DNA of 64,000 nt from Prorocentrum cordatum (taxonomy: Eukaryota; Sar; Dinophyceae; Prorocentrales; Prorocentraceae): contig CAUYUJ010015759.1 of NCBI GenBank assembly GCA_963575745.1, forward strand, positions 1 to 64,000. The letters are read 5' to 3'. The notes under the pieces are model-generated. The model did not search any database. It saw only the letters and a list, made by a program, of their open reading frames with translations, and was not told the origin of the DNA. Shown here in pieces: positions 3,361-34,041 of the stretch. Numbering within the stretch: the stretch's first letter is position 1; each line of letters begins with the position of its first letter. A program made the translations under genes and the position numbers.

Positions 3361-3450
3361 CCACTATTGCCTGCTTGCTTTTGCTGCTGTCTCGGCGACT
3401 TGCTGCCTGCTTCTGCTGCTGCTTCACTTACGGCGTGGCGTCGGCGGCTC

Positions 3451-4176
<726 letters not shown>

Positions 4177-4199
4177 TACTGCTACTGCTACAACTACGA

Positions 4200-5660
4200 C
4201 GATGAGGAGGAGGAGGACGGCGTTTACCGCTCCTACTAATGTTGCTTTCCTAGAGGCTCCAACTCCTAGGTAGGGTCGCACTGGGATCATCTGTTCCACC
4301 CGCGCGGAGTGCTGCGACAGATCAGCAAGCTCGGACCAGCCAACACATCTGGTTTGCCGTTTAGTCCACCCGCGCAGGGTGAGTGTTGCGAGGGAATGGC
4401 AAGATCAAATCAACCAGCGGCAAACAAACCACACACGATGCACGACTGACACTCGAAAGCGGCTGGAGTAAACGGGATGAGAGGAAGGAACTCGCCCGCT
4501 GCCGCTGCTGCTAACCTCGCTCACGACAGCTGTCTGCTGCGAGCACCTCTCATGAACTGTGCACCTTGGACGCGGTGGCAGCACAACGCTGCCATACGGG
4601 GCCCACGCTGCTTGCAAAAAACAGTTCGGTGATGCAGACGTCACTGCGCGAGGCGCGCAGAAGTGAGGCGTTTTCTGGCGTGCACCCGAGGCCCGTGCGC
4701 TGAACGCACCGATCACGCGCGGCGGACGCACTGGGCGCGTGACTTCGGGGAGGATCCAGCCGGGGCGCACGCAGAGGCGCGGGCGGAGGGGCTCTCAGGA
4801 CGAAGGCGCGATGAGAGGGCGCTGCAGCGAGGGCGGGAGCGCTGCCTCGAAGAGCCACTCTTGCGCCGCCCCCCCCCCGTCCTCCCTCCGCGCTGCCCAG
4901 TCCCGCCACGCCTCCCTGCCCCGCTCGGCCCTCCAGAGCCCCGTCCTCCACTCGGCATGGGGGTCGGGGATGCCTAAACCAGCGTTTCGTCTGAGAGTTC
5001 CCGCGATCCTGCCGAGAGCTGCCACATGCAACGCTCCCTGGCTGCTTCCCGTTGGGGTTCGCAAGTGCTATGCCTGCTACATCGCGGTGACAGTGAGGCT
5101 CTGAAAGGAAGAGAGTCGGGGGTGTCAAAACCAGCGAACCGCTCGAGGCAGACCGACAATCGATATACGAACGGGCAACTGCAACGCCCCTCGGTGGCTC
5201 CCCCCTGAGGTCCTCAGACGCCACGCTTGTCACGTCGCTAAGATCTGTGTGAGTGAGTCTGGGTATGAGCGTCCGAGAGTCCGTTTGTCTGGGTGCGAGT
5301 GCTATCTGAGTGCGAGTGAGTCTGAGCATGAGCGATCTGATGTGATGAAACAAGAAAGGACGCGGACCAGGAGGACGTGAGGCGGAGGCGTCACACGAAT
5401 TGACTGATGGCAAGAACCCCTATACTTCGAACGTGGGGAATCTGAATGGACTGCCCCAGCGCAAACTCAGAGGCCCCGCGGACTTCTCGGATCGGCGCTG
5501 TACCCCTCTGGCCCAGAGCAGGTGCAATAATCCCGCGCGGACCTCCGAGACATGCATGCCTGTGCCGACCTGTCCCCTTGGACCTCCCCCCCCCACCCCT
5601 CTCTTCCTCCCTCCGCGGGCGAGGTGGCGTGCGAGGGGCGAAGAGTGAGAGGCGCAGGGT
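4200..5660. other. No supportable gene
   Basis: GC-rich mixed sequence. The longest frame is 287 codons on the minus strand (4550-5413), with no motif and open competing frames. Around 5240-5340 there is a degenerate GTGAGTCTGGG/GAGCG repeat. I see no promoter, RNA gene or splice structure that I would defend. Confidence 0.45.
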
Positions 5661-7140: not shown

Positions 7141-8870
7141 CCCTAAGACGGGCTAGAAGGGCTCCCAGAGGCCGCCAAGACGGTCCAAGAGGGTCCCAAG
7201 TCGCCAAAGGATCGCTCTAAGACGCTCAAGATGGCCCCCAGACGGTCCAAGAGGCCTCCAAGACTCCCCAAAGGCCTCTAAGAGGCCTCCCAAGAGGGCC
7301 CCAATATGCCAAAATCATTGATTGCCTGAGGTTTGAAGGACTGTGGCGTTCTGGCCTTTTCGGCTTCCCGACGCTCCCAGACGACCCTGGAGGCACCCAA
7401 GACCGTTCCAAAACGGCCCAAGAGGCTTCCAAGAGGGTACCGAAACGAACCAAGAGGATCCCACGACAGTCCAAGACGCGCCCACGGCACAAGAGGGCCA
7501 CACGACGGCCCCAAAAGGAACCCTAAAGAGGGAACGCGAACCGAAAATCCATGCCTTCCCTCCCAGGAGGCCCCGAGGAGGCCCCAAGAGGCGCCCAGGA
7601 GGCCGCAAGAGGCTCCCAGACGGCTCCCAAGAGGCGTCCAAACTGCCTCCAAGAGGCCCCCGAGAAGCCTCCCACGAGATCCCAACGAACATCCAATAGA
7701 ATTCTTCCCCACAGGCCAGGCACGGTGGCGGGATGGACCAAAGGCCATTAGATCCGTCGCCACCTGTGGTCTTGCCAGGGGGATGCTTGGCGTACTGAAC
7801 CTTACTTGTTTGGTTTTGGCTCTTCCCCCCAAAAACTCTCGGGGCTTCGGCGCGTCCCGCCAGCAACCCGGAAGACCTGAGATGGCCCTACATGGCATCC
7901 AAAACGGCCAAGATGGCCTCCACGTTCCCCAAAGATGGTCCAAGATGGCCCCCAAGACGGTCCAAGCGAGTCCGAGATGCCTCCAAATTCGCCTCAGAAG
8001 CCACCAAGACAGCCCAAGATGGCCCAAGACGGCCAGAGAAGTCCCCAAGAGGCCTCCCAAACTGGTCACAAAGCCTCCAAGAGGTCTCCAGGAGGGCCCG
8101 AAGAGGCAAAATTCAAGGATGTGCCATTGGTTTTGAAGCATGTTGAAATGTTGTGTCTTCTCGGCCTTCCGACGGCCCGGGACAGCCCAAGAGCCATCAA
8201 AAATCGCCCCAAGATCGCCCACGAGGCCCTCAACATGGCCCGCGGAACGGCACAAGAGGCCCCCAAGTCGGCCCCCAAAGGGCCCCGAGACGGCCCAAGA
8301 GGCCTCCAAGGACGCCCAAGACGGCCGCCAAAACAGCCCTGGAACACACCGAGAGGGCCCCTAGTCAGCCCAGACAGGCCCCCATGACGGCTCCCGACGC
8401 CGTCAGGCAGGCCCAAAATGGTTCCGAGATGGCCCAAGGGGCCCCCAAGAGGTCTCCAAGACGGCCCAAGAAGCCTTCAAAAGGGCCTCCAGGAAGGCTC
8501 GAAGAGGCCAACACCAATGAATTCCCTTTGGGTTGTTGAAGGGTTTTGGCATTTGCTTATTGTCGGCCTTCCGACGGCCCGCGGATCGCTCAAGATCGCT
8601 CAAGAGGCCTCCAACATGACCCGCGGAACGGCCCAAGAGGCCCCCAAGTCGGCCCCCAAAGGGCCCCAAGACGGCCCATGAGGCGTCCAAAACGCCCAAG
8701 ACGGTTTCCCAAACAACCCTGGAGCACCCCAAGAGAGCCACAAGTCGGCCCAGACAGGTCTCCAAGACGGCTCCCGATCCAAGCCAGGAGGCCACCAAAA
8801 CGGACCAATGCCCAAAACGACCCAAGAGGCCCCCAAGAGGTTGCCAAGACGGCCCAAGAGGCCTCCAGAA
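7141..8870 (+). repeat. Long degenerate CCAAGAGG-type array
   Basis: About 1.7 kb dominated by CCCAAGAGGCC, CCAAGATGGCC and CCAAGACGGCC words in the same orientation, at irregular 9-12-bp spacing. Two longer blocks containing TTTTGGCATTTGC and GGCCTTCCGACGGCC recur about 400 bp apart (8150s and 8550s) and again at 23480-23510, so the array also has a higher-order unit. The copia element is inserted at its right end. Arg/Pro-rich open frames here are repeat artefacts. Confidence 0.85.
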
Positions 8871-8871
8871 G

Positions 8872-9390
8872 TGCAATTCACAGCCCAGAGCCTGCCTATC
8901 TAGATCCTACTTACCACAGATGGCCCCTAGAGGCCGAGCGTAACATATGTATAGGATCAGACTCCACAGGAGCCTCTTTTATGTATCCCTGCGTATCCCG
9001 GCGAATCGGGCCCCCTTTAGCCTCCAGGTTGCAGCCAGCCTTGCTTAGTAGATCCTCCGAGATCCTCCGAGATCGCCATTATAATATCCAAGAACAGGTT
9101 CATCCGAAACCGCTCTGGCTCAAGCCTTTGCAGCGTCACAGCGACGCTGGACTGACTGGTGTGCGTCTGGGAGACGCAGAGCAGAGAACTGCCCGCCAAT
9201 ACAGATCCTGTTCATCACCATCGTGCGACCAGAGTCGCACAGACACTGCCCCAGATTCCCCAATATCAACGACCTCACACACATCATCGAGAGAGACGAG
9301 AGATTAGTATCCTGGTTTGATATCTTGTGAGAAGGGAGATCAGTATTCTGGATTGTATCAGGGCAGTGGCCATTCAGCGGGACCATTGCA
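8872..9390 (+). repeat. 5' long terminal repeat
   Basis: 519 bp, from TGCAATTCACAGCCC to GGGACCATTGCA. It matches 22893-23409 throughout. It has a local tandem GATCCTCCGA near 9052-9070. A TATATAA-like word is not obvious. ATAATATCC at 9081 and TATGTATAGGATC at 8946 are the AT-richest spots. The transcription start and poly(A) site cannot be placed. Confidence 0.95.
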
Positions 9391-9408
9391 TGGTAGCGGA
9401 GCAACCGC
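9391..9408 (+). other. Primer binding site (probable initiator-Met tRNA)
   Basis: TGGTAGCGGAGCAACCGC starts at the first base after the 5' LTR. Its complement ends GCTCCGCTACCA, which has the form of a tRNA 3' end with ACCA. Copia elements usually prime from initiator methionine tRNA, and the sequence is close to known TGGTATCAGAGC-type sites. The tRNA identity is inference. Confidence 0.75.
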
Positions 9409-9445
9409 TCCACGGACATATGTTCGCGGACATATTCCACGCACT

Positions 9446-11509
9446 ATGGCGAAGAATAACGGAGACGATATCGTACCGAAGTGGAATGGAGATCTCACCA
9501 CGGTGGATGACTACGAAAGAGATGTGAAGGCCTACATACGAGGGACCCGTCGAGACGAACGCTCTGTGTGCGGCCCACGATTATGGAGACGACTTGAAGG
9601 ACGAGCGAGGCAAGCAGCCAAAGATGTCGATTGGGACCGCATCGAGAAGGACGATGGAGCTACCGAGCTGCTTACACACGTGAGAGCGAAGCTCGGAGCT
9701 CAACGCATCCAGGATGCAGGAAAGTATTTAGCCAGATGGATATTTGATCTACGACGGGACACTGGAGAACCGATGCCAAGCTACACCAGCAGAGACGATG
9801 AGGCCTATCATGACGTGGTCAAGGGGTTCGACACCGAATATTTCAAGAAGCAGCGCACAGCCCGACTCTCGGAGAGAGCCAAGAAGTGGAATAAAATCTA
9901 CGGAGAGCTCAACTGATTCCTGTATAAGATCGAGCAGGAGGGCCCTGAGGACGCTGCGGAGAAGGCCAAGGAGCTGAACCACTCGCTCTGGGACTTCGTC
10001 AAGACGGGTCTTGAGATCCCAGAGCATCCCGACTTCGGGACGGATTTCGATCAGGCGATCCCCCTAGACCAGCTGCGCGGATGGCTACTGCTACAGCGAT
10101 CGAGACTGACACCGACGGAGCGGGCAGCGGTCATCAGCGCAGTCAAGGGTAACTTCGACTACGACAGCATCGGAGAACAGCTACGCGTTTCCTGGCCAGA
10201 TGATGGGCTGACCAATCGGGACAAGAAACAAGGCAAGGACTTCCGTCACCGAGAACGGGGACGAATACATGCCGGCTGGGAAACGAACAGCGAGGAGGAC
10301 GACGACTACAGCTACTACGAAGAGCACGAGTCCGATGCGACCTACGACGGCCAGGGCGACGAGGAGGATGAGGAAGACCCCGAGGAGCCGCTCTACAGTG
10401 CCCAGGAGATCGAGGAAGCCGAGACCGCTTTCGCCGCCCAGCAGAGGAGCTTCGAGGAGGCCCGAGATTTATTGAGACGAGTGAAGACCGCCAGGAAATT
10501 CTACCCCGTGGATGAGAACAAGAAACGAGAATACCGAAGTGGACATCGCAAACCGCCAGGGCCCCGGGCTGGATCTAGAGGCTCAGGGTCATCCAAGGGA
10601 CGAGGCCGCGGGAGCGGACAGCGACGTGACGGACCACCCCGACGAGAAGGTGATCGCTCCCAAGGTCGGCCTCCCAGTCCCAGGAAAGGACCATGCCTGA
10701 AATGCGGCGGCAACCGCGAGACCAAGGATCATCGAGATCGAGAACGCGCATCCTCTACTGGCAGCAGGGGCGACCGAGAGCGACACACAAAGGGGTTCGG
10801 AGCTTTCGTCTTCTTCGGCACCGAGCAGGATGCCGAGATGGAAGCTAACCTCATCACGAACGAGATGTCCAGGCTGCGGTTGGAAGCATCCATTGCCAAT
10901 AAGCCAGTGATCAAGAATCGGCCGAAGACCGCCAATCAGAAGAAGCAGCTGGACAAGAATTCCTACATGCCGATCGAGAGGGCCATCGAGTTGCGAGAAC
11001 GAGTCCAGCACGAGAAGCTACCGATCTGGTCTACCCTGGAGAAGGCCGAGGACTGGATTCTCATGAGTGTCAAGCAGAGCTCCTCCAAGGGCTTCGGCAT
11101 TCTCGACATCGGCGCGACCTCCAGCATCATGGGCATAGAGGCCGCCGAGAACCTACGCGACATTATCTACGAGCAGATGGGCAAGAACATCAGGATGGAC
11201 GCTAGTCAGAAGAGTACGTTTATATTTGGCGACGGCAATGCCAGGACCTGCACCGGCAAGGCGACCTTTCCCCTCATGATCGCCGGTGTGGACGGCGAGC
11301 TAGAGATCAACATCCTCGACGCAGAAGCCCCGCTCCTGATCGGAGTGGACGTGCAGAGCCGCCTCGGGGCTGTGATTGACTGCGAGGCACACGCTGTTTA
11401 CTTCAAGAAGCTCGGGCGCCGAGCTGAGCTGCTAGTCCTTCCGAGCGGCCGCCTTGCACTGCCACTTATACGTCAAGCCGATGTTGGCTTCGTGGCATCC
11501 CTCGAGTAG
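9446..11509 (+). pseudogene. gag-pro: copia gag-protease ORF with one in-frame stop
   Basis: A single frame runs from ATG 9446 to TAG 11507, broken only by TGA at 9914 (codon 157), which probably replaced a sense codon. The N-terminal part is gag-like and rich in charged residues. An acidic stretch (about 10290-10400) precedes a basic Arg/Gly/Pro segment. A degenerate zinc knuckle, CLKCGGN then DHRDRE (Cys at codons 417 and 420, last Cys missing), follows. The protease active site reads LDIGAT near codon 554, where retropepsins usually have D-T/S-G, and the later APLLIGVDV matches the flap-distal part of the fold. Starts upstream of 9446 fall in the LTR and are unlikely. Confidence 0.85.
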
Positions 11510-13000
11510 GGGTGCGCGCCCTCGACACCCGAGACTGCTACGGTGCCGGAGGGAAAACCTGAAAATAAGCAGCCAATCCAAAGCGAGATATCTAGACCGT
11601 CTGCAGCTGTACCCCACAAGGTCCCCGACAAGGTCCCAGACAATGGAGCCCCACAAGCCTCAGGTGCATCATCATTAAAAGGACCACGGGTACATCATCA
11701 TTACCTACGACCACGGGTACATCATCATTACCTACGACCACGGGGGCACCATCATTACCTACGACTGCGGGGACATCATCCTTACAAACGTCATGGACAT
11801 CATCAGAATCGTCCCCTACAGCACCAACTATGACATTATCAGGAACACCTACAGAGACTCTCCCAGAGATCCCCAAGTTCCCAGAGCTTCAGACCCCAAC
11901 GCTCCCGCCTTCCAGAGCCATTTATGGCGCAACAGATCCGAGCCCAGAGCTCAGATTCCAGCAACCAGCATTTCTTCCATATTCGCATGAGCCTCAACCG
12001 AGAGGCGAAATGCCGCAAAGCCGAGAGCCAGCAGGTGAAGCTGGAGAACGAGGAGATGGTCGGATCATGGGAAGCGGTGCCGCCACTGGATGCAGGCGCT
12101 CCGACTCGCCCTCCGACGTCAACGAGACCTACGCAGCCGATGCCGCCATCGGCTCGTCTGATCCAGCATCAGGACACGAGGGGCAACATATTCTACACGG
12201 TCGAGGGCTCGGAGCTGGACAAGAGCCTGAAGCGCCTGACGGACACCTTCCTACTGGAGCACCTGCCGACCTGGGAGATGTGGTCCAGCAAGCTCCTGAA
12301 GCAATGGACGATGTGCCGCCGCTGGGGGCGGGTCATCATCAAGGTCTTCCTCAAGACGATCGACCGGGTGACCTGGAAACTGGACAGCATCGGCCTCCCT
12401 GTGCAGCCTGCCCGAGAAGTACCCGACCTGGCTGGCGGAGCTCGGGCATCGTGCGAAGATCGAGCCACAGCGCCCCAGGACGGAGACGAAGCAGAGGTCA
12501 GCCGCATCCGCGGCCGCTCGAGAGCAGAACCAGGAGCTGCGGGCCAACATCGAGACCGCAAAGTCAGATTTCTCGACCAAGTATGCGAAGGTGGATGCGT
12601 TTGCAGCGCTCAGCTCGGAACAGATCTACGAGAAGCTCAACATGGTGACGGTGGTCAATCACCTGAAGCCCCTGTGCAAGGCCTGGGGACTGACGCAGTC
12701 CGGCAAGAAGGAGGAGGTGATCGACAGGCTCATCACGCGCATCATCGAGCAGCGCGGAACGGCGGCAGCGACGATCAGGGTCAAGAAGGAGCCGGAGACC
12801 AAGAAGGTGGAGACGGGGCCTATCGTTGTGGGCCCGGCGATCCCAGCGCACTACACGCAGATGTGCCAGCACCCAGACTGTCAGCAGCAGCGGGGCATCG
12901 CGAAGAACGAGCCGATCGTGAAGGTGAGGCCCTTCGGGTGGTGCCACCAGGCGTGCGGGAGCAGGGCGAGGACCTGAGTGACATTCAGGCCGAGAAGCTA
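11510..13000 (+). pseudogene. copia polyprotein linker with SAP motif (three frames)
   Basis: Coding continues past the protease stop but changes frame. A Ser/Thr/Pro-rich linker is in frame 1 to about 12040. Frame 2 follows to about 12390 (motif EHLPTWEMW). Frame 3 then runs to TGA at 12975. Frame 3 holds a predicted helical stretch and then LKPLCKAWGLTQSGKKEEVI (about 12663-12722), a good match to the SAP DNA-binding motif. SAP motifs bind AT-rich chromatin DNA, so a role in targeting or packaging is plausible but inferred. The frame changes are indels, either mutation or assembly error. Confidence 0.7.
11683..11790 (+). repeat. 27-bp tandem repeat coding a 9-residue repeat
   Basis: About four units of TACCTACGACCACGGGTACA plus TCATCAT lie in the linker. 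In frame 1 they read TSSLPTTTG repeated, with the last units diverged. The period is a multiple of three, so the linker can vary in length without a frameshift, as expected for an unstructured spacer. Confidence 0.8.
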
Positions 13001-13054
13001 CGCTCGGGAAGCGACGAGAGCCGCCCACTGAGAGGCCATTAGCGTCAGGCCATT

Positions 13055-13720
13055 CGTGCAGCTACCCACTCGACGAGGTCGGCCATCTTCGGAGCTATGT
13101 GCGCGCTCACGACCTTCGGCAGATTGACGATGGTCGAGGCGTGTACCCACGAGGACTCCAACCTTGGCCAGGTCTGCGACGAGAAGGGCTACCACTACGA
13201 GAGACTCGGCCTGTTCAACGACTGCGACCTCAGCAAGCCGCAGGGCTACCACAAGGCGAAGTTCCTGCTGGACGAGAGGCGCCCCGAGCTCCTCGTCAGC
13301 ACACCTACCTGCGGGCCGTGGTCGATTATGCAGAATATCAACCAGCGCGACGACAAGCAGAAGGAATCTGCGCAAGAAGCGACTCAAGAGCCAGCGGATC
13401 TTCGAGAACAACAAGAGGCTCATCGAGCATCAGGTGCTTCACCTGAATGGCTCGGCCCTCGCCGAGCAGCCACAACAGTCGTTCGTGGCAGAAGACCTGC
13501 TGGAAGGACCTGCACAATATTCTCCCCTACGAGGTGATCGTAGACGGCTGCTCCTGCGGACTCGAAGCCCCGGGCACAGGCGAGCTCATGAAGAAGCGCT
13601 GGAAGTTCCTGACGAACGACAAGGGGATCTGGGTGGCCCTCCAGCCGCTACAATGTCGTGGAGGACACTATCATGAGGAGATCGAGAGCAGTCTGAGGAC
13701 CGAGGCCTCGGGCTCCTATC
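13055..13720 (+). pseudogene. copia-borne methyltransferase-like segment
   Basis: Frame 2 (13097-13370) reads a conserved-looking block ending LLVSTPTCGPWSIMQN, with the Cys at 13310. Frame 3 covers about 13370-13440 and frame 1 continues through VDGCSCGL and later CRGGHYHEE (about 13670). A P-x-C motif followed by W-S resembles motif IV of cytosine-5 methyltransferases. Dinoflagellate copia elements carrying such methyltransferases have been described. Here only that motif is clear, the motif I glycine loop is not convincing, and two frame changes split it. The methylase reading is a hypothesis. Confidence 0.5.
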
Positions 13721-15725
13721 CCAAGATGCTGTGCCGCCGGATCCTCCGAGCTCTGACCAAGAGCCAGAATCAGAATTACTTCGAAGAAGAGGTCGTGAAT
13801 TTCTGTATGGCCGCTACCCAGCAGCCACCTACTGAGCCGACTCCAGAGGAGGACGAGGCATCAATTCCACCACTAGATGGCAAGGAGTCACACGACCTCA
13901 CCAGCGACACAGTCAAGAAGGACGAGAGCTACATCAGGCTGGTTCACACCAACCTGGGACATTTACCTCGAGCACATCTTCTACGCTACCTAGACCGAGG
14001 TGCGAGACCTGAGGTGCTACGATTGGCCAGAACCTTCAAGTGCGACATCTGTGATGCTCACCGACCACCGACGAAGCGGCCACCAGCTTCCTCAGCAGAG
14101 CAGCCTCAGAATGGTCACGAAGTTTTGTTCGACGCCTTCTCTTGGATCCGCCGCAGCACGAACACCAACGTGATGGCGCTAGCGATCCTCGACGCTGGCT
14201 CGGACATACTCTACGTGCGGCTTATCGACGAGAAAGCGATCCCAGGGACCTGCCGACAAGTTCGTGCGGGCGACCTTCGACACATCTTTGCTACGAAGTG
14301 GTTCCCTTGGATGGGACGGCCGAAGGTCATGCGCTATGATCCAGCTGGGAGCGCCATCTCCGATGAGTTCCGCGAGTGGATCGAGAGCCAGGGAGTCTAC
14401 TGCCTCCCATGCGCTGCCGACGCCCACTGGCAGATCGGCAAGATCGAACGAGCCATCGAAGCCTTCAAGGAGGCCCTTGACGCCTTCGACGAGATGATCT
14501 CAGCTGAAGTTCCCACGAGCGAGATGTTCGGACTACAGACAGCAGCCAGGAACGACGTGATCAGGATCGACGGTTTCAGTCCGCTGCAGCGCTATGCGGG
14601 ACGGACACCCACTGGCACCACGGTCAACCTCTTCGACGAGCCGACCAACCTGCCGCTCGTCAGCGCCGAGCTGCAGGATGGCACCTTCAGCAGGTACGCT
14701 CAAGTACGACGGATGGCACGGCTAGCTCACATCCAGACAGAGAACTCCGACCGAGTCAAGCGTGCGGAGGCCGCAATATTCAGATCGTTCAAGAAGTACG
14801 AGACGGGCGACCTGGTATTCGTCTACAGGCGGCTCCCACCAGGAGCCTGGCGCAAGCGAGGACAACCCCGATCCATGCCAGGACGAGGCCGCTGGTACGG
14901 ACCTGGACGAGTACTCTGCCATGAGCCTGCCAACTCAGGACATCGACCTGGTCTGCCCGGGACGGTGGTCAACATCGCGCTAGCTGGACGACTCTACCGA
15001 GTTGCTCCCGAACAACTTCGGCCCGCCACGCCTTCCGAGGAGGCGATGGCGTCGCTACGCTCGCGCCGCGAGCAGCCTGGAACATGGACCTTCGGCGACG
15101 TCCAGAAGCAGCTCGACACGAACGAGGTGATCGACCTGTCGAACGAGTCCCCACCCACTGGTGAGGACCTGGCCGCTGACAACGGAGAGTCGGTCAGCAC
15201 CCGCACCTTCGAGAATAACGCAAGCGGACCCTGGGCCATCCCTGAAGACGAGGACCTACCTGTTCCACGAGGAGATCCTCGGAGCTTGGACCCAGGCGGT
15301 GGCGGAGGCGGTGGAGCCCCATCAGCCCCACCAGGCTTCGAGGAACGACCGCTCCCAGGCCCGCGACCGCCAAGGCGACTACGGAGGAAGTGCAATCCCT
15401 GGGATAAGGCTACCGAGGCCCAGGGACCTCTCATCCAGCCAGCACCACCAGAAAGTCCACCAGGTATTCCACAGACTGAAGACCACGAAGCTGGGCAGCC
15501 AGCCGAAGCCGAACCGACTGCAGAAGATGAAATCATCATGGAGGCTCCTCCAGATGACGATCAAGAACCTCCCGCGACTCAGCAACCTCTGGCCGTGGAC
15601 ACGGACGATGAGTTGGACGAGACGACGGCGCCAAACGACAATGACAAGCTTCGGCTACGATCGCCAGGATCAACGGGGCCCCCGATCAAGAAGCAGCGGA
15701 TCAACATGGCGACCCAGGAGGACTA
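13720..15725 (+). pseudogene. int: copia integrase with long C-terminal tail
   Basis: One open frame from about 13447 to 15789. The zinc-binding domain has His at 13945 and 13960 and CDIC Cys at 14041 and 14050. The catalytic core has Asp 14131 (LFDAFSW), Asp 14338 (RYDPAGS) and Glu 14446 (GKIERAIEAFKE). Exactly 35 residues separate the second Asp from the Glu, the canonical D,D35E spacing. Downstream come a GDLVFVYRR segment typical of the copia integrase C-terminus and a long Pro/Glu-rich tail. The frame is lost near 15725, where frame 2 takes over, so the polyprotein is broken although the integrase core looks intact. Confidence 0.92.
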
Positions 15726-16696
15726 TTTCCCACTACCTGCAGGAGGGTACCTTCTACGGGGACTACGCCTACAGCGTCCAGCCGTATGACGTGGTCAAGG
15801 AGGACGACGAGCTCATCGTGCTGGACATCCCTGTCAACAACGAGCACACGATCATGGCTTACATGGACGACCCCAACAACTTCTTGGCATCGCAGGCCCG
15901 GAAGGGCCGAGTCGAAGTCTCATTCAAGAAGGCGACCCCAGAGGTGAAGAAACTGCTACTCGAGGCACAGCAGCAGGAGTGCACCTCCGTCCTCAGCACG
16001 AAGGCCGTCAGGATCCTCAGACGACAGGGGATCGACCCAGCGCGTCTGTTGCGCTGCCGTTTCGTGCTGACCTGGAAGAAGGATGACAAGGGCAACGCGC
16101 TCAGGGGCAAGGCCAGATTGGTCGTGCTCGGTTTCAGCGACCCCGACCTGCTTCATTTACGGACGGAGTCTCCAGCTGCATCGCGACGGGCACGTCAACT
16201 TCTACTGGCCATGGCAGCGAAACACAAGTGGAAGCTGGAGAAGGCCGATGCCGTTACTGCCTTCCTCCAGGGAGAAACGGACGAGGAGAAACGGAAGATC
16301 TACGCGGACCTCCCGAAGGACGTACGTCAGGCCTTCGGCATGAAAGACGACGAGGTCCTGCAGTTTCTCAAGCCGATGTACGGCTTCGTACCTGCTCCTC
16401 GCAAGTGGTGGCTACACTTCAAAGAAACGCTCAAGATGCTGCAACTGGAAGCGATACAGTGCGAGCCATGCGTCTGGGCCATCCGAGACAGCACTACGCT
16501 GGTCGGCATGGTCATCCTACACGTTGACGGCATGATGATTGCCGGCGATCATACTCACGCGGGCTTTCTCAAGAAGCGACATGGAAATCCAACAAGCATT
16601 CGAGTGGACCCCCTGGGAAAGCCGATCATTCGTGCAGTGCGGTATCATCATCCGTCAGAACGAGGATCTCACTTGCAGTCTCGCACAAGGCAGCTA
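15725..16696 (+). pseudogene. rt: copia reverse transcriptase, 5' part
   Basis: Frame 2 encodes the reverse transcriptase fingers and palm: RCRFVLTWK, KADAVTAFLQGE (first catalytic Asp), then LKPMYGFVPAPRKWW. The second catalytic motif reads LHVDGMMIAG (Asp 16526, Gly 16529) where copia enzymes have VDD, so a metal-binding Asp is lost. Near 16575 coding moves to frame 3 (FEWTPWESRSF). The gene is cut at 16696 by the nested element and resumes in the same frame at 21798. Confidence 0.92.
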
Positions 16697-16724
16697 ACCC
16701 GAAAAAAGGATTTAAGAACCCCCC
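16697..16724 (+). repeat. Nested element, left terminal inverted repeat
   Basis: 28 bp beginning ACCCGAAAA and ending TTTAAGAACCCCCC. It pairs with 21771-21797 on the other strand with one mismatch and one 1-base gap. The outer boundary is fixed by the TA duplication at 16695-16696. Confidence 0.9.
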
Positions 16725-16788
16725 GGGGTTATTATTATCACCCGGTTTTTATTCAATATTCTCAGGGGGCATAATCGCCGAACGATAT

Positions 16789-17498
16789 TCTTAGCACCCG
16801 CACAAAAAAATGCGGCGGAGTTCCCTATGGGGCCAAGAAAGAAACTCGCAATGAATGTGAAGAGTGCAAGCGAAGATCTCTCTGGTTTCCATTGAGGAGT
16901 AAGGATATGAGAAATACCTAGCAAAGCTACGAAAAAAGGTAAGGAAAAGCGGAGAAAAAAAAAACTAGGTGAGGAACCGTTGAGGAAAAGCGTAAGTAAA
17001 GTTAAAGAAAACTAAAGAAATGCTTAGAACACCTAAGGGAAAGCTCGTGAAACCATACAGACAACTGAGACATCCGAAGGAAAATCTAACGAAAATCTGA
17101 AGAACAACCGAGGACAAGCTGAAGAAAAAACTGAGGCAAATCTAAAGAAAGGGGGGGAAGAGCTAAACGCTGTGGAAAAACTACGGAACAGCTAAAGAAC
17201 ACTGAGACAACCTGGAGACAAGTCGAGGACAAGCTGAGGAGAAGCCCAGGAAAGCTGAGGAACAGCTGAGGAAAATCTATTGACAAAACTGAAGAAAAGC
17301 TGAGTAGAAGCCTAGGAAAGCGGAGGAACACCTCAGAAACATAGAGAAAACTACGGAACAGGTGAAGAACACGACGGAACAGGTGATGAAACAATTAACG
17401 AAAATGTAAGAAAAGCTAAAAACAGCAACATAAACATTGAACAGACATGACAACCTCAAGTAAACTAAGGAAAAGCTCAGATTTTTTCCTTTATATAT

Positions 17499-17592
<94 letters not shown>

Positions 17593-18040
17593 ACATAAGG
17601 AAAAGCTGAGAAAACTCTAGATACAGCTGCGGGGGAAAAAAAAACGGAGGACATCTGATTTCCCTGTTCAAGTTGATGGGTTCTGGAGGGGCTGGTGGGG
17701 ATCACGCGAAGCGTCAGAATTTGCGAAGATGCCCTGTTTGCGTGTCCTGGCCTTGCGTTCCTTGCGAAACAATAATTAGACCCCCCCCCCCCTTTTGTTG
17801 CATCGCCCGCCCGAGCGCGGTGGCGGAACCGCGCGGCAACGCCGCTGAATCTGAGATAACTTAATCGGACTGGCAACGGGCAAGAGGCAAGCTGATTCTT
17901 TTTTCCGCGATGCCCGGCCTCGGCGCCTGAACGTTCGGGCGTTCTCTGGGTCTCAAGTGAGACAATCTGGCGGTCTCGCTGACGACGCGAGCACTGAGAA
18001 CCAGATCTCTGAAAAGGAAGGCGGGATCGCTGATAACGCG
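16789..18040 (-). repeat. Nested element internal module, copy 1
   Basis: Starts TTAGCACCCGC, then an A-run and ATGCGG. About 650 bp of purine-rich GCTGAGGAAAAGC-type words follow, then a TA microsatellite, then about 300 bp including GAGCGCGGTGGCGGA and TCAAGTGAGACAATCTGGC. The same order without the TA run recurs at 19011-19850. On the minus strand it lies just downstream of the 167-codon ORF, so it could serve as that gene's 3' region. Confidence 0.75.
17492..17586. repeat. TA dinucleotide microsatellite
   Basis: About 95 bases of (TA)n with two GT interruptions near the left end. It sits in copy 1 of the internal module and is absent from copy 2, so it arose after the duplication. Repeating Tyr-Ile peptide frames here are artefacts. 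Confidence 0.95.
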
Positions 18041-18124
18041 AACACTGAAAGCCTAAACTCTGCAACGGACGGCGAGGTGCGGCCTGGGCAAAGTGCAGAG
18101 ATATGACAGGGCGCTTGAGAGACG

Positions 18125-18628
18125 CTAGCCTGGCTTGACCCAGAGGAGGCCTCTGAAAGGCGCCCTGCCTGAAGGCCCGAGGCGGCTCAGCACGTCAACC
18201 TTAGCGGCAGGCTTTCCCCGCTGAGCGGTGCGCTGACTCTTGGGCGGCTCATCGTAGCTGCCGCTGTGGGAGTCCTGACTCGTCGTCGCGCTGCTGCTGC
18301 CTGAGCGCTGCTGCCTGCTCACCTCTGAGGCGGGCCTCTTCCTGGGTGTTCCCTGAGCTGCAGGGCGCTTCCTCAACAACAAGCGCCTCCCTCCAAGCTG
18401 CCCGGTCGGCTTCGTGGACGCCGCCTCCTTAGCGGCCTTGGCCTGGGCCTTGCGCCAAGCAGCGGCCTCTCTCTTAGCCTCTGCTTTGAGCCTCTTCCGC
18501 TCTCTGAGCGACAAGGCGTCCTCTCCCTGAGGAATCGAGTGCATCTTCGCGCGCTCCCCCTCCTCTGAACTCCATCCTGCTGTATCTGGCGCCTGAGCAT
18601 CCCAGTCGATCGCTCCTTTGAACTCCAT
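18125..18628 (-). CDS. Small basic protein of unknown function, in nested element
   Basis: 167 codons. The first in-frame ATG after the spliced-leader relic gives a start MEFKGAIDWDAQ at 18628. After an acidic N-terminus comes a Lys/Arg/Ala-rich helical stretch (about residues 40-75), then two RKRPA words near residues 85-100, then a Ser-rich and a basic tail. KRPA-type repeats look like nuclear-localisation or DNA-binding tails. There is no catalytic motif and no family is recognised. The 5' leader of about 80 nt begins with the spliced-leader relic at 18710-18729 and the 3' side runs into the internal module. It is more likely an accessory or gag-like protein than a transposase, but that is open. 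Confidence 0.55.
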   Translation of the reverse strand: MEFKGAIDWDAQAPDTAGWSSEEGERAKMHSIPQGEDALSLRERKRLKAEAKREAAAWRKAQAKAAKEAASTKPTGQLGGRRLLLRKRPAAQGTPRKRPASEVSRQQRSGSSSATTSQDSHSGSYDEPPKSQRTAQRGKPAAKVDVLSRLGPSGRAPFRGLLWVKPG

Positions 18629-18709
18629 CCAGCTGAATGCTCTGCGCGAGAAGGTGAGCTGTTGCTGTCGGCGGCTGAAAGTCGAAGCCTGAAGCTTGAG
18701 CCTGAAAAC

Positions 18710-18729
18710 TGAGCCACAATGGCTACGGA
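18710..18729 (-). other. Relict dinoflagellate spliced-leader sequence
   Basis: On the minus strand this reads TCCGTAGCCATTGTGGCTCA. The conserved dinoflagellate spliced leader, trans-spliced onto mRNA 5' ends, has the same 20 bases with T in place of the G, then AG. One mismatch in 20 is far beyond chance in 64 kb. It lies 81 nt upstream of the ORF at 18628. A genomic spliced leader at the head of an ORF normally means that a processed mRNA was copied back into DNA. Confidence 0.85.
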
Positions 18730-19010
18730 GAAGCTCAGAACTCTCTGCTGCACTGATCTGAACTGGAATGACTTCGAGGACCTCGTGAACTCGGCTGTAA
18801 TCTGAAAAATAAGCTTGTAAGAAATTGTACGACTGAGGAAAGGCTTAGATTCCTGAAACGGAATTGGCCTTTTCTGTCACCTCAGGGGCCGTCTTGGATG
18901 TGTTCTCCTCCTCCTCCCCCTCCTCCGCCCCTCTCCCCCTCCTCTTTTTCTCATTGCGATTTCTATAGCAAACCCCTTTGATATCCCCGCCGCCCCGCAC
19001 CGCGGCGTTA

Positions 19011-19850
19011 CCTTAGCACCCGCCATTCCAAAAAAAATGAGGGGATCTGCAGGGAAACCTCAAGGTGAAGCAAAGCTGGAGAACTGAAAGAAACCGATGG
19101 AGAACTGAAAGAAACCGAAACACATCTGCTGTTAGAGAAAAAGGTAAACAAATCGGAAGTTCAGAAACCCACGGAAAAACTGCGGACAACTTAAGAAAAT
19201 CGAAGGACATCTGAGAAAGCCCGACAATTGAAAACAAGCTCATAAAAAAAAACTCACGTAAATCTGAGGATCCGCTGAGGAAAGCTTGAGACAAGGTAAG
19301 GAAAATCGGGGGACAAGCTGAAGCAAACCTGCGGACATGCGAAGATAAGCTCAAGAAAAGCTAAGGAAAAGCTGCGGAACCCTGAGGATACGCAAACAAA
19401 AAGCTGAGGAAAGCAACGGAAAGCTAAGGGCAACTAAATAGAAACAGCAAAGGAAAGCTGAGCAAAAGCTGTGGAACAACAAAAGAAAAACTGCGGGCAA
19501 ACTAAGCTGATTTACTATGACGTCCTAAGTGTGCGTCGTGTTCCTTCGCTCCTTGCGAAGCAATAATTGAAGTTGAAGCTCCCCTTGTTGCGTCCAAGCC
19601 ACGGGGGGGGCACCCCGGCCCCTCCCCGCGATCGCCCACCCGAGCGCGGTGGCGGAGTCGCGCGGCAGCGCCATGGAATGTGAGACAATTGAAACGGATT
19701 GTCAGAAAGAGAGAAGCAACCTGAATCGTTTCTTCGCGACGCCTGCCCTCGGCGCCTGAACGCCCTGGCGGTCTCGGAGTCTCAAGTGAGACAATCTGGC
19801 AGTCTCGCTGAGGACGCGAGCACTGAAAGCCGGAATTCCCAAAAGGAGGC
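19011..19850 (-). repeat. Nested element internal module, copy 2
   Basis: Begins CCTTAGCACCCGCC, then an A-run and ATGAGG, followed by purine-rich AAGCTGAGG words and then about 300 bp matching 17740-18030 (shared GAGCGCGGTGGCGGA, TCAAGTGAGACAATCTGGC and CGCGAGCACTGA words). On the minus strand it lies directly downstream of the Ulp1-like ORF, the same place that copy 1 holds relative to the first ORF. Confidence 0.75.
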
Positions 19851-19918
19851 CTAACGCAGGCTGGCAAGCTCACTACGCCTTATTCACCTGCACATGCCCC
19901 TGAGCACGCTCATCGTGC

Positions 19919-21490
19919 TCATCCTCCACCACGACGGCGGTTTCCCATGCCTCGCGCAATGCCTAGGGCGTGCTCATGGCTGCGCGCGACGCAGCCTGAG
20001 CGGTACTCGCACTTAGCACATACCTGCGCTGTCTGGATCATCTCCACGTGGCTGACGTACGCCTGACACTCGTCCTTGTTCAGGCTCGTGAACTGGATCT
20101 GGTCGAACGCCGCCTGAAAAACTGGCAACGGCAAGCTCCTCAACCATTTCTCGAAGCCTTTCTGTCCCTTCTCCTTAGGGTCCGACGCTGCCAGCTGCTC
20201 CTGGGCTTCCTTCTGAGCCATCGCCTCAGCAGCCGCGGCCTTGGCCTTGGCGTGAGCCTCCGCCTCAGCAGCGGTCTGGGCCTGAGCTTCCGCCTCAGCA
20301 GCAGCCTTGGGTTGAGCCTCCGTCTCAGAAGCGCCCTTTGCCTGGGCGTTCGCCTCGGCGGCGGCCTTGGCCTGTGCCTCCGCCTGAGCAGCTGCCTTGA
20401 CCTGCGCCTCGGCCTTGTTCTCGGCCTGGGCCTCAGCCTCCGCCTCAGCAGCTGCCTTGACCTGCGCCTCCTGCGCCTCGGCCCCAGCAGCGGTTTTCTC
20501 TTGAGCCTCCGCCTCAGCAGCGGCCTTGCCCTGGGCCTCCGTCTCCGCTGCGGGCTTGCCCTCAGGCGGAGCCTCAGGCGCCTCCTTGGCCACCTCCTTC
20601 TGAGCGCCTCCCTGACTGGCAGGTTTGGCAAATTTACCCGAACTCTCATGGGTCTGATTTTCCATGATCTTCCTGACGGCGTCCATGACCTCCTGCCTCA
20701 ATTTCTGGTTCTCTTCCGCCCTGAGCCTCCTCCTCACCTCCTTCGGGTCGTCGGGGATGGCATCGGGAAGCGTCTTGCACCATATACTGACGAGCGCCGC
20801 CTCCTCAGCTCTGTTCCTGAGCTCGTGGGCCTCTTTCTCATCTGTCTGCGCCGTCGTAGTCTTCGCCTGAAGGAGTGTCTGGGCAGCCGTGCGCTTCGCG
20901 TCCTCAAGCTGAGCGTCTGAAGGCCAGGTGTCCCTCGCTTTTTCATGTTGCTTGACCGCGCTGACACATTTACTGATCATGGCATTCTTCCTGATTTTAG
21001 GCGTGGTGATCGGAGCGCCGCCCTCACCTGACAGCCTCCTCACCTCCAGCTCAAGGTAATGCATGACCCAGTATCCGCAATCCGTTCCAGCCTGCCTGAA
21101 TACCTGATGCCTCGTGAGCGCACTGACGAGTGAGGTGTTGCTCAGGTTCGGAAAGATCGCCTGAAGGAGAAGCATCGCTCTCTCCCGACACACCTCATTG
21201 ACCTTGTCCAAGGTCTCGTAGTACCTGATCCGAGGCTCCTCCAGCCTGACGCCGTTCTCCATCGCCTCGATGACCAGGAGGGTCCAATGGCCTGGCTCGT
21301 GCGTCTCCTCGCCCTGAGGACACTGAACTGGAAAGAAGACCTTCTCGTACCGGCTGATGGATCTCCTGAAGGCCTCGGCCTGAAGTCTGGACCCCTCATC
21401 GTCCTCTTCGTGAAGAAGCCTCTGGAAATACACGTACAAGCTGTCTGGCGACCAGGTGAGGAAGCTCGCCTGACAGAACGTGTTCTCCAC
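19919..21490 (-). CDS. Ulp1-like (C48) cysteine peptidase, transposon-borne
   Basis: 523 codons from the first ATG, but the frame stays open upstream through SAPIEFKKTSALVDGQ, up to a CA-rich stretch ending CACACAG on the minus strand. An unseen 5' exon is therefore likely. The peptidase domain spans about residues 1-160: HWTLLVIE (His68), YYETL (Glu92 where C48 enzymes have Asp), RQAGTDCGYW (Gln133, Cys138). C48 enzymes cleave SUMO-type conjugates, and Ulp1 domains occur in several DNA transposons. Residues about 325-445 are Ala/Glu/Lys/Gln repeats, probably coiled coil. The C-terminus has a Cys cluster, CAKCEYRSGC. Activity with Glu in the triad is uncertain. Confidence 0.8.
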   Translation of the reverse strand: MENTFCQASFLTWSPDSLYVYFQRLLHEEDDEGSRLQAEAFRRSISRYEKVFFPVQCPQGEETHEPGHWTLLVIEAMENGVRLEEPRIRYYETLDKVNEVCRERAMLLLQAIFPNLSNTSLVSALTRHQVFRQAGTDCGYWVMHYLELEVRRLSGEGGAPITTPKIRKNAMISKCVSAVKQHEKARDTWPSDAQLEDAKRTAAQTLLQAKTTTAQTDEKEAHELRNRAEEAALVSIWCKTLPDAIPDDPKEVRRRLRAEENQKLRQEVMDAVRKIMENQTHESSGKFAKPASQGGAQKEVAKEAPEAPPEGKPAAETEAQGKAAAEAEAQEKTAAGAEAQEAQVKAAAEAEAEAQAENKAEAQVKAAAQAEAQAKAAAEANAQAKGASETEAQPKAAAEAEAQAQTAAEAEAHAKAKAAAAEAMAQKEAQEQLAASDPKEKGQKGFEKWLRSLPLPVFQAAFDQIQFTSLNKDECQAYVSHVEMIQTAQVCAKCEYRSGCVARSHEHALGIARGMGNRRRGGG

Positions 21491-21572
21491 CAGAACTGAC
21501 CACAGCTGGATGGTCTGACCATCGACGAGGGCTGAAGTCTTCTTGAATTCTATGGGAGCAGACGATTCCGGG

Positions 21573-21603
21573 CTGTGTGTGTGTGCGTGCGCGTGTGTGC
21601 GTG

Positions 21604-21643
<40 letters not shown>

Positions 21644-21645
21644 CT
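21573..21645. repeat. GT dinucleotide microsatellite
   Basis: (GT)n with GC interruptions near the right end of the nested element. On the minus strand it is a CA-rich run ending in AG directly before the open Ulp1 frame, so it could be the 3' end of an intron. That role is inference. Confidence 0.85.
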
Positions 21646-21649
21646 GACC

Positions 21650-21797
21650 GTGAGAAACGATTAAGAACCCCCCCCCCTGCGAGACCCGCGGGGCCCGTAG
21701 GATCCGCCCCCCCTCCCGGTGCCAGGATAACGCTGCCAGGGTGCGCAGGGTTATCGTTTCGCAGGAGGGGGGGGGGTTCTTAAATCCCTTTTCGGGT
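21650..21797. repeat. Subterminal foldback including the right TIR
   Basis: GATTAAGAACCCCCCCCCTG (from about 21658) pairs with the right terminal region CAGGAGGGGGGG and TTCTTAAATC (to about 21786). The right end therefore contains a second, inward copy of the terminal sequence and can fold on itself. The right TIR proper is 21771-21797. Confidence 0.7.
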
Positions 21798-22805
21798 TAC
21801 AGCCTGAACGTGGAGCCCATCATGATACGACGTGGACGGAAACCTACAGACGGAGTCTCGGACAAAGAGAGATCACACTTACGAGGGCGACTTGGCACAG
21901 TCAACTGGCGAGCTCAACAGTCCGCCCCGTGGCTAAGTGCTGAAGTCTCTCTACTTCAAGCAGAGATACCTACGGCTACGGCCTCGACCATCCAGAAGAT
22001 CAACAAGCTCATCCGCACCATGAACGATACTGCCGACGTGGTCATGCTCATCCCCGCCATTGAGCATATCGCTGTGGTTGGCTGGGGCGACGCAGCCTGG
22101 GTTGCCCGTATCACCGGCGAGTCCCAGGGTGGCGAGATGATCGTGTTGGCCCCACTGTCTTTCCTGAGCGGCTCGACTGAGACGGTGGCGCCTATTTCAT
22201 GGAGATCGTGCAAACTACCGCGAGTCGCCAGAAGCAGTACGAGTGCGGAGGTTCAGATGATGACGGAGACCCTAGACGAGATCAGCTACGTGCGTCTGTT
22301 CATCTATGAGTTGGAGTGCGGCCAAGTGGACGACACGAACAAGTACCACGTGACAAACGCCATCTCATCCTGCCCTGGCGTGCTAGTCACAGACGGCAAG
22401 TCGGGCTACGACGCTATCGAGAAGAGTGAGTCGGCTGGTCTTGGACTGCGCGACAAACGTACGAGCATCGAGTGTCTAGGCATTCGACAGCCGAAGGAGC
22501 AGACAGCCCTCTAGATACGTTGGGTTCACAGCGACGCTCTGCTCGTCGACGGTCTCACCAAGGATCGTGCCGCCAAGGTCTTGCTCGAGTTCTTCAGGAC
22601 AGGCCAGCGCTGGAGGCTCGTGGACGACCCTCTACACCGCAGTGTCAGAAAACGCAAGACCGAGGGCATGGACAAGCTCGACCACGGCAAGCCGCTGTGC
22701 CCCGACGATGACGATGCTATGCTGGAGGCCCTCATCTACTACGCCCGCGACAACCCCGACGAGCAGGACAGCCCTGCGGGAGATGCAGCCCTGTGGGCAC
22801 AGTGA
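21798..22805 (+). pseudogene. copia reverse transcriptase 3' end and RNase H, one stop
   Basis: Frame 3 continues the reverse transcriptase from the insertion site. The RNase H signature is VGWGDAAW (first Asp), RSSTSAEVQ (Glu), then VLVTDGKSGYDA (second Asp). TAG at 22512 interrupts just before RWVHSDALLVDGLTK, the conserved copia RNase H end. The frame then runs to TGA at 22803 with an acidic tail. The stop is a single-base lesion in an otherwise well-preserved domain. Confidence 0.9.
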
Positions 22806-22892
22806 GGAAGCTCACGCGCTCTGTGCTTTCTGTGAATTCAGCCGCCAGCGGCAGGCCTCGATGCCGTAACATCGATCTTTAGCTTTTGGGCA

Positions 22893-23409
22893 TGCAATTC
22901 ACAGCCCAGAGCCTGCCTATCTAGAGCCTAGTTACCACAGATGGCCCCTAGAGGCCGAGCGTGACATATGTATAGGATCAGACTCCACAGGACCCTCTTT
23001 TATGTATCCCTGCGTATCCCGGCGAATCGGGCCCCGTTTAGCCTCCAGGTTGCAGCCAGCCTTGCTTAGTAGATCCTCCGAGATCCTCCGAGATCCCCAT
23101 TAAAATATCCCAGAACAGGTTCATCCGAAACCGTTCTGGCTCAAGCCTTTGCAGCGTCACAGCGACGCTGGACTTACTGGTGTGCGTCTGGGAGACGCAG
23201 AGCAGAGAACTGCCCGCCAATACAGATCCTGTTCATCACCATCGTGCGACCAGAGTCGCACAGACACTGCCCCAGATTCCCCAATATCAACGACCTCACA
23301 CACATCATCGAGAGACGAGAGATTAGTATCCTGGTTTGATATCTTTTGAGAAGGGAGATCAGTATTCTGGATTGTATCAGGGCAGTGGTCCATCAGCGGG
23401 ACCATTGCA
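22893..23409 (+). repeat. 3' long terminal repeat
   Basis: 517 bp, TG to CA, matching the 5' LTR. Differences include a 2-bp deletion in the GAGAGACGAG stretch near 23310 and about 14 substitutions by hand alignment. The upstream CTTTTGGGCA is not a good polypurine tract, so second-strand priming is not explained. Confidence 0.95.
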
Positions 23410-23745
23410 AAGAGGGCCCCCAGGAAGGCCCAAAGAGGCCAACACCAATGGATTCCCATGGGTGTTTGAAGGATTGTGGCATTTGCTTCTTTTCGGCATT
23501 CCGACGGCCCGAGGCAGCTCAAGAGCCCCCAAAGATCGTCCTATGATCGCCCAACAAGCCCCCACGATGGCCCCATAACGGCCCAGAGCTCCAAGACGGC
23601 CCAAGAGGCCTCCAAGACGCCCAAAATGGCATCCAAGACAGCCCTGGAGCACCCCAAGACGGCCCCGAGTCGGCCCAGACAGGTCCCCAAGACGACTTCC
23701 GACGGCGTCAGACGGGCCAGGGATGCCGCAAGACGGCCAAAGGGG
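23410..23745 (+). repeat. CCAAGAGG-type array, right flank of the copia element
   Basis: It resumes the same repeat and orientation as 7141-8870, including CATTTGCTTCTTTTCGGCAT and CCGACGGCC blocks matching those near 8550. This shows that the retrotransposon split one array. Confidence 0.85.
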
Positions 23746-27162: not shown

Positions 27163-27775
27163 ATCACTCCGTGGGCGCTGGGCGGGGCAGGTCCCGCCGT
27201 CGCGGTGGCTGCTGGATTGAAACGATCTGGCTCGCGTTAGTCGGGGGAGTCGGTGGTGGGGTGGGGCGGGGGGGTGCGCCTGAGGGCGTCGGCGATCGGC
27301 TCGGTCGCTGTGCACCTGGCAGATTTTTTCTCACAGGGCGCTTCGCAATGTGGTCTCCCGATGGTTGGCCCTCTCGCACAGAGCAGGATTGCTCGTCGGT
27401 TGACGTCTGTCGCTCGTGGGCATTGTTGTTGACCGCCCTGGTGGCAGGCCCTTCAGCGTTTCGATGCACAGTGTTGCCCCTGCCGCTCCAGGGGCCTTCT
27501 TCAGCGTCTGTAGGGCAAGGGTCGTGGGTGCTGAGGTTTGATGTAGGTACCCCACATCCTGTTTCAACTCTCGGTCGCTTGGCCCCAACTGAGTACTTTC
27601 CCTGAGCCGTGCTGGCGTCGCGGTGCACTGTGGTGCTGTTGACAATGGCAGTGGCGTTGGCCGTCGCGCGTTCACTGCGTCGCCCGTCGTTCAGCCGCCC
27701 TGAATGCGGGCGCGCTCAGCTCTGCGCGCCGTCGGGACAGCGCCGGGGCAGGCCACCGGCGTTGGTCAAGGCGTC
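27163..27775. repeat. 0.6-kb direct duplication, copy A
   Basis: Runs from about GGGCGGGGCAGGTCC to GTTGGTCAAGGCGTCT and matches 33471-34041 across its whole length with many substitutions. Copy A has about 50 bp near 27385-27435 that copy B lacks. It contains minus-strand sense such as SIQQPPR in both copies. Both copies have the same orientation. Confidence 0.85.
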
Positions 27776-28406
27776 TTGGCCTGCCCATCTGAAGTGCACC
27801 CCCCGAATGTTGGCGGAGGTCGCGAGCGCCCCGCTGCGGCGAGTCTTCCCGGCCTGGGTGCGCAGTTGGTCGTGGCGCGCCAGTCCCGATGTGCGGCGTC
27901 GCCCCGATGCGGTCCAGCGCCGCCTTGTGGCCGTCAGAAGGAGCGCTGGGGGCCCCGGCAGCTTCGTCTCCGTCGCCCGCCGTAGCCCTGTCGGCGGGGG
28001 CGTCGGCCTCAGGGGCCGCGACGACGATGGCGCGGGGCTCGTTGGAGTCGATGGCGGTCCTCTTGGCCCCTCGCGCGCTGGGGCTCAGATTTGTCGGCGC
28101 TGGGTGCTTCCGCGACGGTGGCGTCGATGGTCCTCTCCCAGGCGTGCCAGTGAAGCTTCTGAATGGGTTCACCACTTGTGGCGCCCTTTGCCCCGTCGGG
28201 GCGATGCCATCACCCTCTTTCTGCGTGGGCGACGGCGCGTCGATGTTGATGGTCGCAGGGGCATGGATGAACGGTGGGTGCGGTTGGCCTGTAGGCTTCG
28301 TGGGCCCTGGTGTCCAAGCTGGCGGCGTTGGCCATCCATCCTCGTCGCTCTGCGGAGGTTCTTCTGGCGTGGGCGTCCCTCTCTGCGTCCCTGACGGCGT
28401 GGACAT
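27672..28406 (-). CDS. Unknown proline-rich protein, N-terminal segment
   Basis: 244 codons from ATG 28406 (MSTPSGTQRGTPTPEEPP). The protein is Pro/Thr/Ala-rich and disordered-looking, with AIVVAAPEADAPADRA in the middle and an Arg-rich end. The last third lies in the duplicated block, so the stop at 27672 may not be the true end. No domain recognised. The next minus-strand segments may be later exons. Confidence 0.4.
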   Translation of the reverse strand: MSTPSGTQRGTPTPEEPPQSDEDGWPTPPAWTPGPTKPTGQPHPPFIHAPATINIDAPSPTQKEGDGIAPTGQRAPQVVNPFRSFTGTPGRGPSTPPSRKHPAPTNLSPSARGAKRTAIDSNEPRAIVVAAPEADAPADRATAGDGDEAAGAPSAPSDGHKAALDRIGATPHIGTGAPRPTAHPGREDSPQRGARDLRQHSGGALQMGRPRRLDQRRWPAPALSRRRAELSAPAFRAAERRATQ

Positions 28407-33475: not shown

Positions 33476-34041
33476 TCCGTTGGGCGGGGCTTGGTCCGCT
33501 GCCGCGGTGGCTGCTGGATTGAAACGCTCTGGTTCGCGTTCGTCGGGGGGGGCGGTGGCGGGGCGGGGCGGAGGGGCGCGCCTGCGGGCGTCGGCGCTAG
33601 GCTCGGTCGCTGCGCATGTGGACCTGGCCGTTTTTTTTTCTCACCGGGCGCTTCGCAATGTGGTCTCCCGATGGTGAGCCCTCTTGCACAGTGACCGCCC
33701 CGGTGGCAGGCCCTTCGGCGTTGCGAGGCGATGTGTTGCCCCCGCCGCTTAGGGGCCTTCTTCTGCGCCTGTAGGGCGAAGGTCGTGGGTGCTGAGGTTT
33801 GATGTGAGCATGCCACATCCTGTTTCAACTCTTGGTCGCTCGGCCGCAACTGAGTCCTTTCCCTGAGCCGTGCTGGCGTCGCGGTGCACCGTGGCGCTGT
33901 TGAAATGGCAATAGCGTTGGCCGTCGCGCGTTCACTGCGTCGCCCGTCGTTCAGCCGTCCTGAACGCGGGCGCGCTCGGCTTTGCGCGCCGTCGGGGCAG
34001 CGCCGCGGCAGGCCCCCGTCGTTGGTCAAGGCGTCTTTGAG
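33471..34041. repeat. 0.6-kb direct duplication, copy B
   Basis: Matches 27163-27775 in the same orientation. Shared words include GGTGGCTGCTGGATTGAAAC, GGCGCTTCGCAATGTGGTCT and GTTGGTCAAGGCGTCT. It lacks about 50 bp present in copy A. Sequence on either side is unrelated between the two copies, so the edges are sharp. Confidence 0.85.

Follow-up and report, generated by a model that had tools for sequence, protein, structure and literature searches.

A multi-copy family of TA-inserting transposons in Prorocentrum cordatum with a resident C48-like peptidase gene and a probable pogo/Tc1-mariner-like transposase in its long copies

Transposons of the pogo superfamily, within the IS630-Tc1-mariner group, mostly make TA target duplications and carry terminal inverted repeats (TIRs) mostly up to 40 bp long; their transposases are of the DD29-56D type, DD35D in the Passer and Fot types, and their length is 1.2-5.2 kb (PMC7386202). 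Ginger1 transposons and Mutator elements both include members with Ulp1 domains, of unknown role (PMC2836005, PMC13317346). Gene duplication in dinoflagellates is considered to be due in part to transposition (PMC10666404). The present work deals with an element of about 5.1 kb at positions 16697-21797 (the window copy) of a 64,000-nt stretch of contig CAUYUJ010015759.1 from Prorocentrum cordatum; this whole stretch is called the window and provides the coordinates. A sequence-only reading had described a TIR element with a TA duplication and no visible transposase, containing a C48-like (Ulp1-like) peptidase gene and a small basic protein, and had suggested that it may be a non-autonomous member of an unknown superfamily. 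The observation was confirmed, and the interpretation was supported in part. None of the 63 open reading frames (ORFs) tested matched a transposase, and the genome contains seven TA-flanked pairs of such ends. We consider it likely that the window copy belongs to a family whose long members code for a divergent transposase, pogo/Tc1-mariner-like and linked to a Ulp1-type peptidase, and that it has itself become non-autonomous by internal deletion.

The ends are a 28-bp left TIR on the plus strand (16697-16724) and a 27-bp right TIR on the minus strand (21771-21797), with ACCCG ends. Aligned over 28 columns, they show a single gap and a single mismatch; the score of 21.5 compares with at most 12 among 2000 shuffles, which confirms the matched inverted ends. 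The TIR pattern is found twice in the window, an outcome that was obtained in 0 of 100 shuffles. The TA duplication was confirmed as well, at 16695-16696 and 21798-21799, by reading across the joined flanks: one TA restores the frame of the interrupted copia element over 165 codons, and neither zero nor two TA do so. This copia element (8872-23409, plus strand) has long terminal repeats (LTRs) at 8872-9390 and 22893-23409 that are 97.1% identical. The earlier claim that its frame is unbroken across the site holds for those 165 codons but not for the main RVT_2 ORF (15131-16774), which is in a different frame at the insertion site; judging from the reading frames, copia was apparently already frameshifted near 16.55 kb. 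Regarding an introner-like excision, a GC...AG pair near the element edges, judged by eye, would break the frame, which exact removal with one TA restores. Outside the copia LTRs, the flanking sequences at 8079-8871 and 23408-23718 are 76-84% alike.

A search of the same genome (4.13 Gb, 21,875 contigs) with the TIR pattern, allowing up to two mismatches, gave 24 matches versus 2 for the reversed control. The further copies that the sequence-only reading had proposed to look for were found: six more plus/minus pairs, located in contigs C17924 (3211 bp), C17135 (4718 bp), C7803 (5172 bp), C13464 (5217 bp), C20577 (12374 bp) and C13376 (19087 bp). Each of them is bordered by TA at both ends, and their flanking sequences differ. 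Chance inverted repeats or an assembly artefact would be an alternative, but seven TIR pairs with TA refute it and leave it practically no probability. Some of the unpaired matches also start with TAACCCG and others look like chance, and no TIR match was found in viral contigs. Between the 12.4-kb and 19.1-kb copies, identity is 98-99.6% over the longest stretches in common (4008, 3179, 2546 and 5408 bp), and therefore the spread of the long copies seems recent on sequence grounds. Coding sequence of the C48 family is present in five of the six further pairs, with the whole domain and a complete gene kept in the 12.4-kb and 19.1-kb copies, and no C48 match in the 3.2-kb copy (L012). Among the C48 loci L028-L047, of about 4 kb each, no matching TIR was found other than that of the window copy.

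Comparison with the 12.4-kb copy shows which DNA is absent here. Element positions 3557-4879 correspond to 9477-8194 of L013 and positions 4881-5080 to 1743-1544, so that the window copy lacks about 6.5 kb that L013 has between the two stretches. The loss cuts the C48 gene, and at 21573-21577 its exon runs directly into the right subterminal part, at a (TG)n tract. Of 20 fetched C48 loci, 19 have the N-terminal C48 segment, the sole exception being the window copy. The (CA)nAG edge was considered as an intron acceptor and rejected, as this AG is the deletion junction. What remains of the gene (19884-21574, minus strand) encodes the catalytic domain, a coiled coil, Ala-rich repeats and a Cys-rich C-terminus; it lacks the 5' end and is frameshifted near the C-terminus, where residues 290-315 of the protein relative P0006 match 19964-19887 in another frame. 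Taken by itself, this anatomy (a truncated gene, no transposase and a foldback end) would suit a Pack-TYPE element with a captured host C48 gene, for which Pack-Mariner is a precedent. However, the long copies have the same ends and the complete gene, and the truncation is an internal deletion and not a capture edge, so that host-gene capture is refuted for the window copy and the Pack-TYPE explanation is very improbable; an ancient capture of C48 by the ancestor of the family may have taken place. As an internally deleted member of the family, the window copy is probably unable to move by its own means.

The peptidase assignment draws on Pfam, on the order of the active site and on fold rows. 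The C48 ORF of the window copy matched Pfam Peptidase_C48 at E 0.013 and 15.7 bits, under the cut-off of 20.7, and L015 (15.2 bits), P0001 (17.5) and P0003 (14.8) also stay under it; P0002 (22.9 bits) is the only scanned relative that passes. The catalytic domain (minus strand, approximate limits 20939-21574) contains the motifs GHW, YYET and RQAGTDCG. In the alignment, Gln and Cys are present in 7 of 7 rows, and GHW and YYET in 5 of 5 and 6 of 6 of the rows covering them; the aligned His, acid, Gln and Cys are what we take to be the C48 catalytic residues. NEDP1, SENPs and XopD lead the Foldseek/VIA fold rows, at low model confidence, and the structure model of P0002 has a pLDDT of 52.2. The search of the PDB by sequence matched no C48 chain, and C48 was confirmed in none of the 39 and 122 pattern matches from viral contigs and in 0 of 32 from genome contigs.

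In the genome, C48 gave 65 matches, corresponding to 51 loci after joining, many with open frames of 400-1179 aa; in C13376 the domain lies at the end of the 1179-aa frame. Of six protein relatives, two carry the name Prorocentrum cordatum, and residues 1-88 of P0002 are 100% identical to L041 and L042 of this genome. Some C48 loci have equal scores (C3795 and C5302, identical over 311 codons; C521, C15182 and C16889) and are either recent copies or duplicated contigs. The dN/dS ratio was calculated by the Nei-Gojobori method with our own script for 14 C48 pairs. It was 0.24-0.37 in seven pairs (distant groups, and the window copy versus C13376 and C20577), 0.44 and 0.49 in two, 0.75 in two very close pairs, undefined in two nearly identical pairs, and 0.71 between the window copy and its nearest relative. 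These values fit selection on the C48 family together with decay of the window copy.

Since the C48-like gene and the basic protein both recur in other copies, the two belong to the element family, in agreement with the sequence-only reading. The gene for the 239-aa basic protein is retained in the window copy (18125-18844, minus strand), where the stretch around it (element positions 1213-2285) shows 78.5-78.6% identity with L011, L014 and L015; the gene recurs in long copies, and the same protein lies in L015 at 2898-3452. The suggestion that it might be the transposase was not supported, as no convincing Pfam or protein match was found and none of 1086 candidates matched. A repeat 3' of the basic-protein gene (17802-18018, minus strand) is 80% identical to one 3' of the C48 gene (19631-19847, minus strand). 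Over about 0.35-0.4 kb, the left subterminal part (16697-17095, plus strand) shows 72-73% identity with L011, L014 and L015, and the right one (21577-21776), common to the long copies, is 91-92% identical to L011 and L013. A foldback at the right end (21655-21797), in which the inner TIR occurs a second time at 21661-21678, pointing inward, has a DNA fold z of -4.34, and 0 of 200 shuffles were as stable; it falls within the part common to the long copies and therefore gives no sign of fused neighbours.

For the transposase, Pfam was run on 63 of the 66 stop-to-stop ORFs of at least 45 aa that overlap the element, the other three (16528-16794, 16539-16697 and 21731-21943) all running into copia. 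No transposase was matched among these 63, in agreement with the earlier observation; the rows obtained were only C48, RVT_2 of copia and weak ones, including I-TevI_ZnF (0.24), DUF3561 (0.1), Adeno_VII (0.11), DUF6418 (0.056) and Transferase (0.058). NCBIfam and PHROGs, used on three ORFs, gave nothing convincing, and no Rfam family was found. A motif of about 40 bp is repeated at 1745-1780, 17681-17721 (inside the element) and about 55961-56001 and has no Rfam family. Ten ORFs of the long copies gave C48 (E 0.019), Cwf_Cwc_15 (E 0.0003), NOA36 (E 0.0067) and weaker rows; Cwf_Cwc_15 and NOA36 are below their own cut-offs and cover a charged stretch.

A candidate was found in the 19.1-kb copy and is not in the 12.4-kb copy: a 454-aa ORF (L016 1453-2814, minus strand), here called exon 1. 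The sequence-only reading had come close in suggesting an undetected exon, although the candidate is in longer copies and belongs to the DNA lost from the window copy. The exon-1 core has 92 genome matches, and 38 loci were built from 49 of these rows, the other 43, nearly all weaker, being dropped. A C48 locus lies within 20 kb of 22 of the 38, and all 23 resulting pairs are on the same strand, with C48 2.6-8.3 kb downstream. All 6 aligned relatives have the first Asp (D51 in L054), which lies in the context FMSDQVPMWLK or, in distant ones, VDATALWLK. In L048 a single ORF continues from the exon-1 region to QQPSGF...RDLFTGA, and the start of the element C48 ORF (YQQPAGF...RDMFAGA) matches this tail, with tblastn E values of 1e-6 to 4e-5 at L052, L053, L015 and L013. 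This block is followed by GKMTAAVQVTDTD, which MAFFT aligns with DVTSFLREPDAH of L049, and by our own count the second and third Asp are 35 residues apart in both the element and L049. Since L048 is a single ORF and the block with the second and third Asp shares one ORF with C48, we infer that exon 1 and the C48 ORF form one protein. L048 (C5224), L049 (C6558) and L054 (C13927) are long ORFs and distant kin of the exon-1 protein; the motifs of the last two are clearer and DDE_1-like. By motif, we assume L049 and L054 to be DDE_1/pogo-like proteins. Dozens of weak exon-1-like matches are also scattered in the genome and perhaps represent a large separate transposase family.

Several results weigh against this assignment. 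No Pfam DDE domain was found in exon 1 or in the 1179-aa C48 ORF at E <= 10, and the PDB search gave no transposase match, one result being filled by matches to a stretch rich in glycine. In the MAFFT alignment the third Asp falls in register and the second lies about three columns off, and the region of L049 with both residues has no significant match in the element (best E 0.25, at L014). Moreover, by eye, no simple donor/acceptor pair keeps the frame at the splice join, and the exon with the second Asp contains a stop in the 12.4-kb copy. For these reasons (the missing profile and PDB matches, the E of 0.25, the shifted Asp and the splice join) we say that the family would work like pogo and do not claim membership. 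In a rival explanation the family, the deletion history and the resident C48 are the same, but the exon-1/exon-2 protein is not the transposase and another enzyme moves all copies in trans. In its favour, neither Pfam nor PDB supports a DDE fold, but the linkage, the family-wide invariant Asp, the D35D spacing and the TA/TIR type agree with a pogo/mariner-like enzyme, and we regard this rival as unlikely.

The pogo/mariner-like reading, which we prefer, assigns the transposase from motifs; TA, TIR length and D...D35D point to the pogo/Tc1-mariner group, but no profile match supports this. The family consists of multi-copy TA-inserting TIR transposons, the window copy being an internally deleted, non-autonomous one, and its long members have, besides the small basic protein, a resident gene for a C48 (Ulp1/SENP-like) peptidase. 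Upstream of C48 and on the same strand, a protein would provide the DDE-like first Asp, and the long ORF ending in C48 would begin with the apparent second and third Asp. One spliced gene, or two adjacent genes, may thus yield a divergent transposase, pogo/Tc1-mariner-like in kind, together with the Ulp1-type peptidase to which it is tied. Cutting at the TIRs and joining of the element to TA would be the work of the transposase, the peptidase might strip SUMO/NEDD8-like tags from the transposase or from host factors, and short copies would be moved in trans. More tentatively, and with less confidence than doubt, these elements of up to 19 kb could be a separate dinoflagellate TA-inserting lineage, whose D...D35D transposase and SENP8-like C48 form one protein, which would make the removal of SUMO/NEDD8-like tags an integral part of transposition or of the escape from silencing.

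A Ulp1 peptidase tied to a TA-inserting element would be a further association in a different transposon type, suggesting that transposons have a common need for such peptidases, and a possible driver would be named for non-autonomous TIR elements in dinoflagellates. Near-identical long copies within one genome make the question testable. In the titles and abstract openings of the open-licence literature, no report was found of a Ulp1 gene in a pogo-type or TA-inserting element.

Other features were observed in the window. A 151-bp AT-rich foldback at 39778-39928 (fold z -5.79), with ends TTAAGTCGGGCG and TTACGTCGGGCG and the 8-bp TGGTAGAC on both sides, is probably a miniature inverted-repeat element (MITE) of another superfamily. 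A direct repeat at 27176-27777 and 33478-34037, 85-90% identical and about 6.3 kb apart, could represent LTRs, and positions 1-766 form a tandem array whose repeat unit measures about 90-100 bp.

Compared with SENP8/NEDP1 and other C48 peptidases, the domain shares the order of the active site and the best fold rows, at low model confidence, and differs by its long N- and C-terminal parts and by Glu at the position where Ulp1 has Asp. Mutator-type target duplications are long, 8-10 bp, whereas here only TA is found, in seven pairs with other ends. The likeness to Kaonashi/KIU Mutator elements lies in a conserved Ulp1 domain on a DNA transposon (PMC13317346). Ginger1 also links its transposase to a C-terminal Ulp1 domain, but it has CCGG/CCGT 4-bp duplications, TGTNR ends and a Gypsy-integrase-like enzyme, unlike the TA and ACCCG found here (PMC2836005). 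Dinoflagellate introners are likewise non-autonomous TIR elements, but they are short intronic units, whereas the present ones are kilobase elements with genes. Finally, pogo elements share the TA duplication, TIRs in the same range (27-28 bp here, up to 40 bp in pogo) and, by our own count, the D...D spacing of 35; compared with the pogo elements (PMC7386202), the present family has no Pfam DDE_1 match, reaches 12-19 kb instead of 1.2-5.2 kb, and carries in addition a C48 peptidase and a basic protein.

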